Shown piece by piece: positions 30,501 through 30,640 of a stretch of DNA of 64,000 nucleotides (positions are counted from its first letter, which is position 1; the number at the start of each line of letters is the position of its first letter). The position numbers and the translations under genes were made by a program. The DNA comes from an uncultured Alphaproteobacteria bacterium (GTDB lineage: Bacteria > Pseudomonadota > Alphaproteobacteria > Micropepsales > Micropepsaceae). The stretch covers positions 1 through 64,000 of the forward strand of contig CAILUV010000098.1 in the NCBI GenBank assembly GCA_903837555.1. The letters run 5' to 3'. A model generated the notes under the pieces. The model saw only the letters and a program-made list of their open reading frames with translations, was not told where the DNA came from and did not search any database.

Positions 30501-30514
30501 AAATCCCGCCCCAG

Positions 30515-30605
30515 TTATCAACAGCAGGATTCACAGTGATTCGCCGGGAGTCCCGGGTCAAGAGTCTCGATGAATCAAAGTGTTAAGACTTGAGTCCCCG
30601 GATTC
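30515..30605. promoter_or_regulatory. ccrM upstream region: seven clustered GANTC sites and one DnaA-box-like sequence
   Basis: GANTC at 30528, 30538, 30548, 30562, 30572, 30592, 30601; TTATCAACA at 30515-30523. Confidence 0.75.
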
Positions 30606-30640
30606 ATCCCCACACCAGATGTGGTGGGTTGGGACAAAAA

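Follow-up and report, generated by a model that had tools for sequence, protein, structure and literature searches.

A conserved GANTC array on the predicted core promoter of ccrM in an uncultured alphaproteobacterium

Most of what is known about how CcrM levels are set, and about how DNA methylation is converted into transcription, comes from Caulobacter, and the ccrM promoter of Caulobacter looks exceptional. RNA polymerase is recruited by GcrA, which binds methylated GANTC sites at promoters (PMC3667746). In Caulobacter, a distinct timing class consists of promoters that have GANTC between the -10 and -35 elements, and more than one GANTC within 50 bp is found at 11 of 96 cell-cycle transcription start sites (PMC4287350). 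According to the modelling literature, ccrM itself is driven in Caulobacter by CtrA from hemimethylated DNA (PMC2217572). Outside Caulobacterales, ccrM is a predicted core target of GcrA (PMC7987155), and the predicted GcrA-ccrM link is described as lost in Caulobacterales and Parvularculales (PMC7987155, Fig 6).

The GANTC array and the predicted ccrM promoter

The window analyzed here, a stretch of 64,000 nucleotides from an uncultured member of the Micropepsaceae, carries ccrM and its upstream neighbour rnhB, both on the minus strand, with a gap between them at 30501-30640. The ccrM start codon ATG occupies 30500-30498, and orthologues of the gene are found in 89 of 96 genomes of the order. 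CcrM and GcrA (PF07750 match, E 1.8e-47) are encoded in the same genome as the array. All seven GANTC sites listed for the gap in the preliminary description are present, with first bases at 30528, 30538, 30548, 30562, 30572, 30592, and 30601, and its intervals of 10, 10, 14, 10, 20, and 9 bp agree with our recomputation. For comparison, 61 ccrM upstream regions from the same genus were collected, 59 of which can be aligned on GANTC-TTGAC; as many of these species are closely related, the genus counts given below are not independent events. The features of the locus are as follows, with GANTC sites given without strand.

29424-30500, minus strand: ccrM, GANTC adenine methyltransferase (Pfam N6_N4_Mtase and RAMA)
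30641-31291, minus strand: rnhB, upstream neighbour of ccrM (Pfam RNase_HII)
30601-30605: GANTC site 1, about -79 to -75 from the predicted start; 46/59 genus members, at -42 to -37 from site 4
30592-30596: GANTC site 2, about -70 to -66; 52/59 genus members
30572-30576: GANTC site 3, about -50 to -46, member of the class-wide core; 57/59 genus members
30562-30566: GANTC site 4, -40 to -36, abutting the predicted -35; directly before TTGAC in 59/61 genus regions
30556-30561, minus strand: predicted -35 hexamer TTGACC, conserved in genus, order, and class
30548-30552: GANTC site 5, -26 to -22, inside the -35/-10 spacer; 58/59 genus members
30538-30542: GANTC site 6, -16 to -12, overlapping the predicted -10; exactly +24 from site 4 in 59/59
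30533-30538, minus strand: predicted -10 hexamer CACTGT, C-12 shared with site 6; class columns A-11 0.88 and T-7 0.91
30528-30532: GANTC site 7, -6 to -2, between the predicted -10 and start; 18/59 genus members, always at +34
30526, minus strand: predicted transcription start from -10 geometry, to within about 2 bp either way
30515-30523, minus strand: DnaA-box-like TGTTGATAA in the predicted leader, about +4 to +12

In our reading the element is a predicted sigma70 promoter whose -10 (CANNNT) is weak, with a predicted -35/-10 spacer of 17 bp and a predicted leader of 26 nt up to the ATG at 30500. The preliminary description did not place the sites on the -35/-10 core promoter, nor did it report the three-site version that is kept across the class. 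The canonical CtrA box TTAA-N7-TTAA is absent from the gap, which holds only a single TTAA half-site. LexA boxes overlapping GANTC, a named confounder (PMC7987155), were rejected because neither LexA motif (GTTC-N7-GTTC or GAAC-N7-GTTC) occurs in the gap. Slightly upstream of site 3 (30582-30586 in the window), relatives and the class sample also conserve TAA(C/G), frequently as TTAAC, which may be a CtrA half-site or another element.

The DnaA-box-like sequence TTATCAACA is indeed present at 30515-30523, on the start-codon side of the array, as the preliminary description had it. A match to TGTGGATAA with at most one mismatch is found in 35 of the 59 genus members, mostly at one fixed offset, compared with 3 of 1180 base-shuffled leaders.

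The seven sites span 78 bp. Dinucleotide-shuffling the gap 20,000 times yielded no more than six GANTC per shuffle and never seven. The window has fewer GANTC than expected (105 against 244), and the real background is therefore about one site per 600 bp, rarer than the one per 300 bp that had been claimed. No comparable stretch of the window outside the ccrM cluster has more than two. Genome-wide density was assessed through pattern searches; a search of the 2.46-Mb genome for GANTC triplets with gaps of up to 30 bp returned 25 matches in 13 places, against five for the reversed control. Chance clustering was rejected on the gap shuffles and this genome-wide search. Only two places reach seven to eight sites, namely the ccrM gap (7 in 78 bp) and a region upstream of a YbjN-family gene (C57:4434-4555, 8 in 122 bp). 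Dense clusters are thus rare in this genome by the triplet search, and relatives keep the array (see below), so that neither of the two computational refuters named in the preliminary description applies; an array specific to ccrM is supported. The YbjN-upstream cluster was rejected as an equal case, being kept only in close relatives, with one to ten sites and no fixed spacing elsewhere. A further four sites in 42 bp (C63:792-833) lie just upstream of a multi-PAS histidine kinase gene, beside an ahcY-like gene.

The preliminary description also had most sites near one helical face, a picture that survives only in part. At a period of 10.5 bp the window sites give R = 0.74, a modest statistic (P about 0.014-0.02 when compared with random placement), and the genus median R is 0.69. 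The sites form two in-phase blocks, sites 1 to 4 and 5 to 7, 14 bp apart, and this 14-bp step amounts to a shift of about one-third of a turn. The sites within each block thus share a face roughly, but a single face for the whole array is only approximate.

Two observations concern the wider locus. Around 30606-30660 the 3′ end of rnhB differs here from that of most relatives, and CACATCTGGTGTGGGG, which lies inside the rnhB-ccrM gap, elsewhere resembles the end of the rnhB coding sequence. A fixed distance between ccrM and the origin was rejected, with values of about 40, 41, 59, and 93% of the half-chromosome in four closed genomes, taken by our own arithmetic relative to hemE as an unverified origin proxy.

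Conservation in the genus and across the class

Two sites of the array, 4 and 6, are positionally invariant in the genus and four more are kept in 46 to 58 of the 59 members. The usual spacing is 9-10, 19-20, 9-10, 14-15, and 9-10 bp, with flanks that barely align; relative to site 4, site 3 lies at -11 to -9 in 57/59 and site 5 at +13 to +15 in 58/59. The array is thus conserved in close relatives, spacing included, and related arrays with drifted spacing occur in other genera of the order. The middle base differs in behaviour from site to site. It is C at site 4 in all 59 genus members and A at site 6 in 56/59, that is, nearly fixed, while at site 5 it varies freely, both in the genus (C 33, A 11, G 8, T 6) and in the class cores (G 12, C 12, A 6, T 5). 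The methylation target itself, and not a fixed word, is therefore kept at site 5, which points to selection on the CcrM target there rather than on a fixed protein site.

For the class, 91 alphaproteobacterial ccrM upstream regions were compared, mostly one per family. A simpler core recurs in Rhodobacterales and in the class sample, consisting of GANTC, about 12 bp, TTGAC, GANTC, and GANTC-A. The pattern TTGAC-N1-5-GANTC-N3-7-GANTC stands before ccrM on the coding strand in 35 of the 91 regions, on the opposite strand in none, and in none of 100 shuffled sets; the 56 regions that miss this strict pattern do so partly through start-site or -35 variation. Altogether the 91 regions hold 346 GANTC against 122 expected. 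Thirty of the 35 cores have a further GANTC at most 20 bp upstream of TTGAC. In 28 of the 35, the last C of site 6 falls at -12, 23 bases from the first T of TTGAC, and the A-11 and T-7 columns of the class -10 lie outside the GANTC sites. Predicted starts fall at or next to the ATG in many ccrM regions of the class, which suggests that ccrM mRNA may be leaderless in many lineages.

Within the window's genome the same pattern occurs exactly twice, at ccrM and at ftsB/DivIC (C85:63003-63068), where the cluster lies directly upstream of the gene. This form of the ftsB promoter recurs in other alphaproteobacterial families.

The core is as common without detectable GcrA (10/23) as with it (25/68; Fisher P 0.62), where absence was called by one Pfam HMM and some incomplete genomes among the negatives could contain an overlooked, divergent GcrA; this comparison bears on the class core and not on the genus of the window. 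A permissive repeat search (E <= 10) of 25 GcrA-negative genomes gave no match above the cut-off. In families f66, f113, f114, and f136, GcrA is missing in both sampled genomes and the core is kept. As there is no association across the class, GcrA presence was rejected as a predictor of the core. GcrA would therefore not be needed to explain how the core is maintained, and there is room for a different reader or for methylation acting directly on RNA polymerase. The GcrA-negative families would have either a divergent GcrA or another reader, possibly RNA polymerase itself.

Possible readers of the array

We consider it reasonably likely, judging from site positions and their conservation, that the array is a methylation-read, self-regulating core promoter of ccrM. 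As the array lies on and around the predicted promoter of the methylase's own gene, with a spacing kept in the genus and a simpler core in the class, methylase production is probably adjusted by the cell according to the methylation state of its own DNA. CcrM would methylate the array sites, which would become hemimethylated after passage of the replication fork until CcrM accumulates. GcrA, the likely reader in this genome, would act on the methylated sites while bound to sigma70-RNA polymerase and so drive the ccrM promoter, which would need such help because its predicted -10 is weak. Several sites may give a steeper or graded response, and DnaA at the leader box could add an input from replication initiation. 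The output would be ccrM transcription coupled to replication as well as to the level of methylation produced by CcrM itself. The preliminary description's overall interpretation of the array is partly supported, in that the array is ccrM-specific, conserved, and rare and GcrA is encoded, with the single-face picture as its weaker part and the graded feedback switch and the GcrA reader as proposals.

An unlikely alternative is that RNA polymerase reads the methylation directly, with m6A at about -15 and -13 (site 6), in the spacer, and at the -35 edge altering sigma70 binding or melting; the ancestral promoter would then have needed no GcrA, which would be a later or additional reader. The equal frequency of the core without detectable GcrA, the empty repeat search, the four GcrA-lacking families, and the way site 6 supplies base -12 in lock with the -35 all fit such direct reading. 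GcrA is, however, present in the window's genome, GcrA-dependent reading is published for Caulobacter (PMC3667746), and absence by HMM is not proof. A broader proposal, tentative and on the doubtful side, is that an ancestral alphaproteobacterial ccrM promoter had GANTC built into its -35, spacer, and -10 and has been maintained even in lineages that lack GcrA, m6A acting directly on sigma70-RNA polymerase or through an undescribed reader, and that one order expanded it to a six-to-seven-site array which measures methylation in steps.

Two other explanations start from different uses of the sites. A negative feedback like that of Caulobacter, where ccrM is transcribed from hemimethylated DNA and methylation shuts it down (PMC2217572), would have the promoter fire only when hemimethylated behind the fork and be turned off by full CcrM methylation. 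Such a role could fall to the sites that lie outside the -35/-10 interval, but the GANTC positions in Caulobacter differ and the canonical CtrA box is missing from the gap, and we regard it as distinctly unlikely. It is highly improbable that methylation is incidental and that the GANTC words are kept because another protein (CtrA, LexA, DnaA, or MucR) binds them or because they form part of the promoter sequence. The near-fixed middle bases of sites 4 and 6 and the unexplained TAA upstream of site 3 would suit this explanation; against it, the middle base of site 5 is free in genus and class, LexA and full CtrA boxes are absent from the gap, and GANTC is kept exactly at several sites whose flanks differ.

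Comparison with described methylation-dependent promoters

The GANTC core, positionally conserved class-wide on the ccrM promoter, is a defined, mutable element for testing methylation self-reading, and its occurrence where GcrA is not detectable raises the question whether methylation can be read without GcrA. Among the closest described systems are the GcrA/CcrM promoters of Caulobacter (mipZ, podJ, pleC, ftsZ, and ctrA P1). These are likewise housekeeping promoters of cell-cycle genes with GANTC at or close to the -35/-10, in a genome encoding CcrM and GcrA. Those promoters have one or few sites, whereas six to seven with conserved spacing stand here on ccrM itself, and the core is kept even where GcrA is not found. 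The Caulobacter ccrM promoter and leader share GANTC upstream of ccrM and the self-methylation feedback proposed here, but have four sites at other positions, lack the TTGAC core, and are driven by CtrA, while the gap studied here has no canonical CtrA box. The published GcrA-ccrM prediction (PMC7987155) concerns the same gene and the same predicted link; it scored extended motifs without promoter positions, whereas the present analysis resolves the -35/spacer/-10 geometry and the multi-site array and compares them with the occurrence of GcrA.
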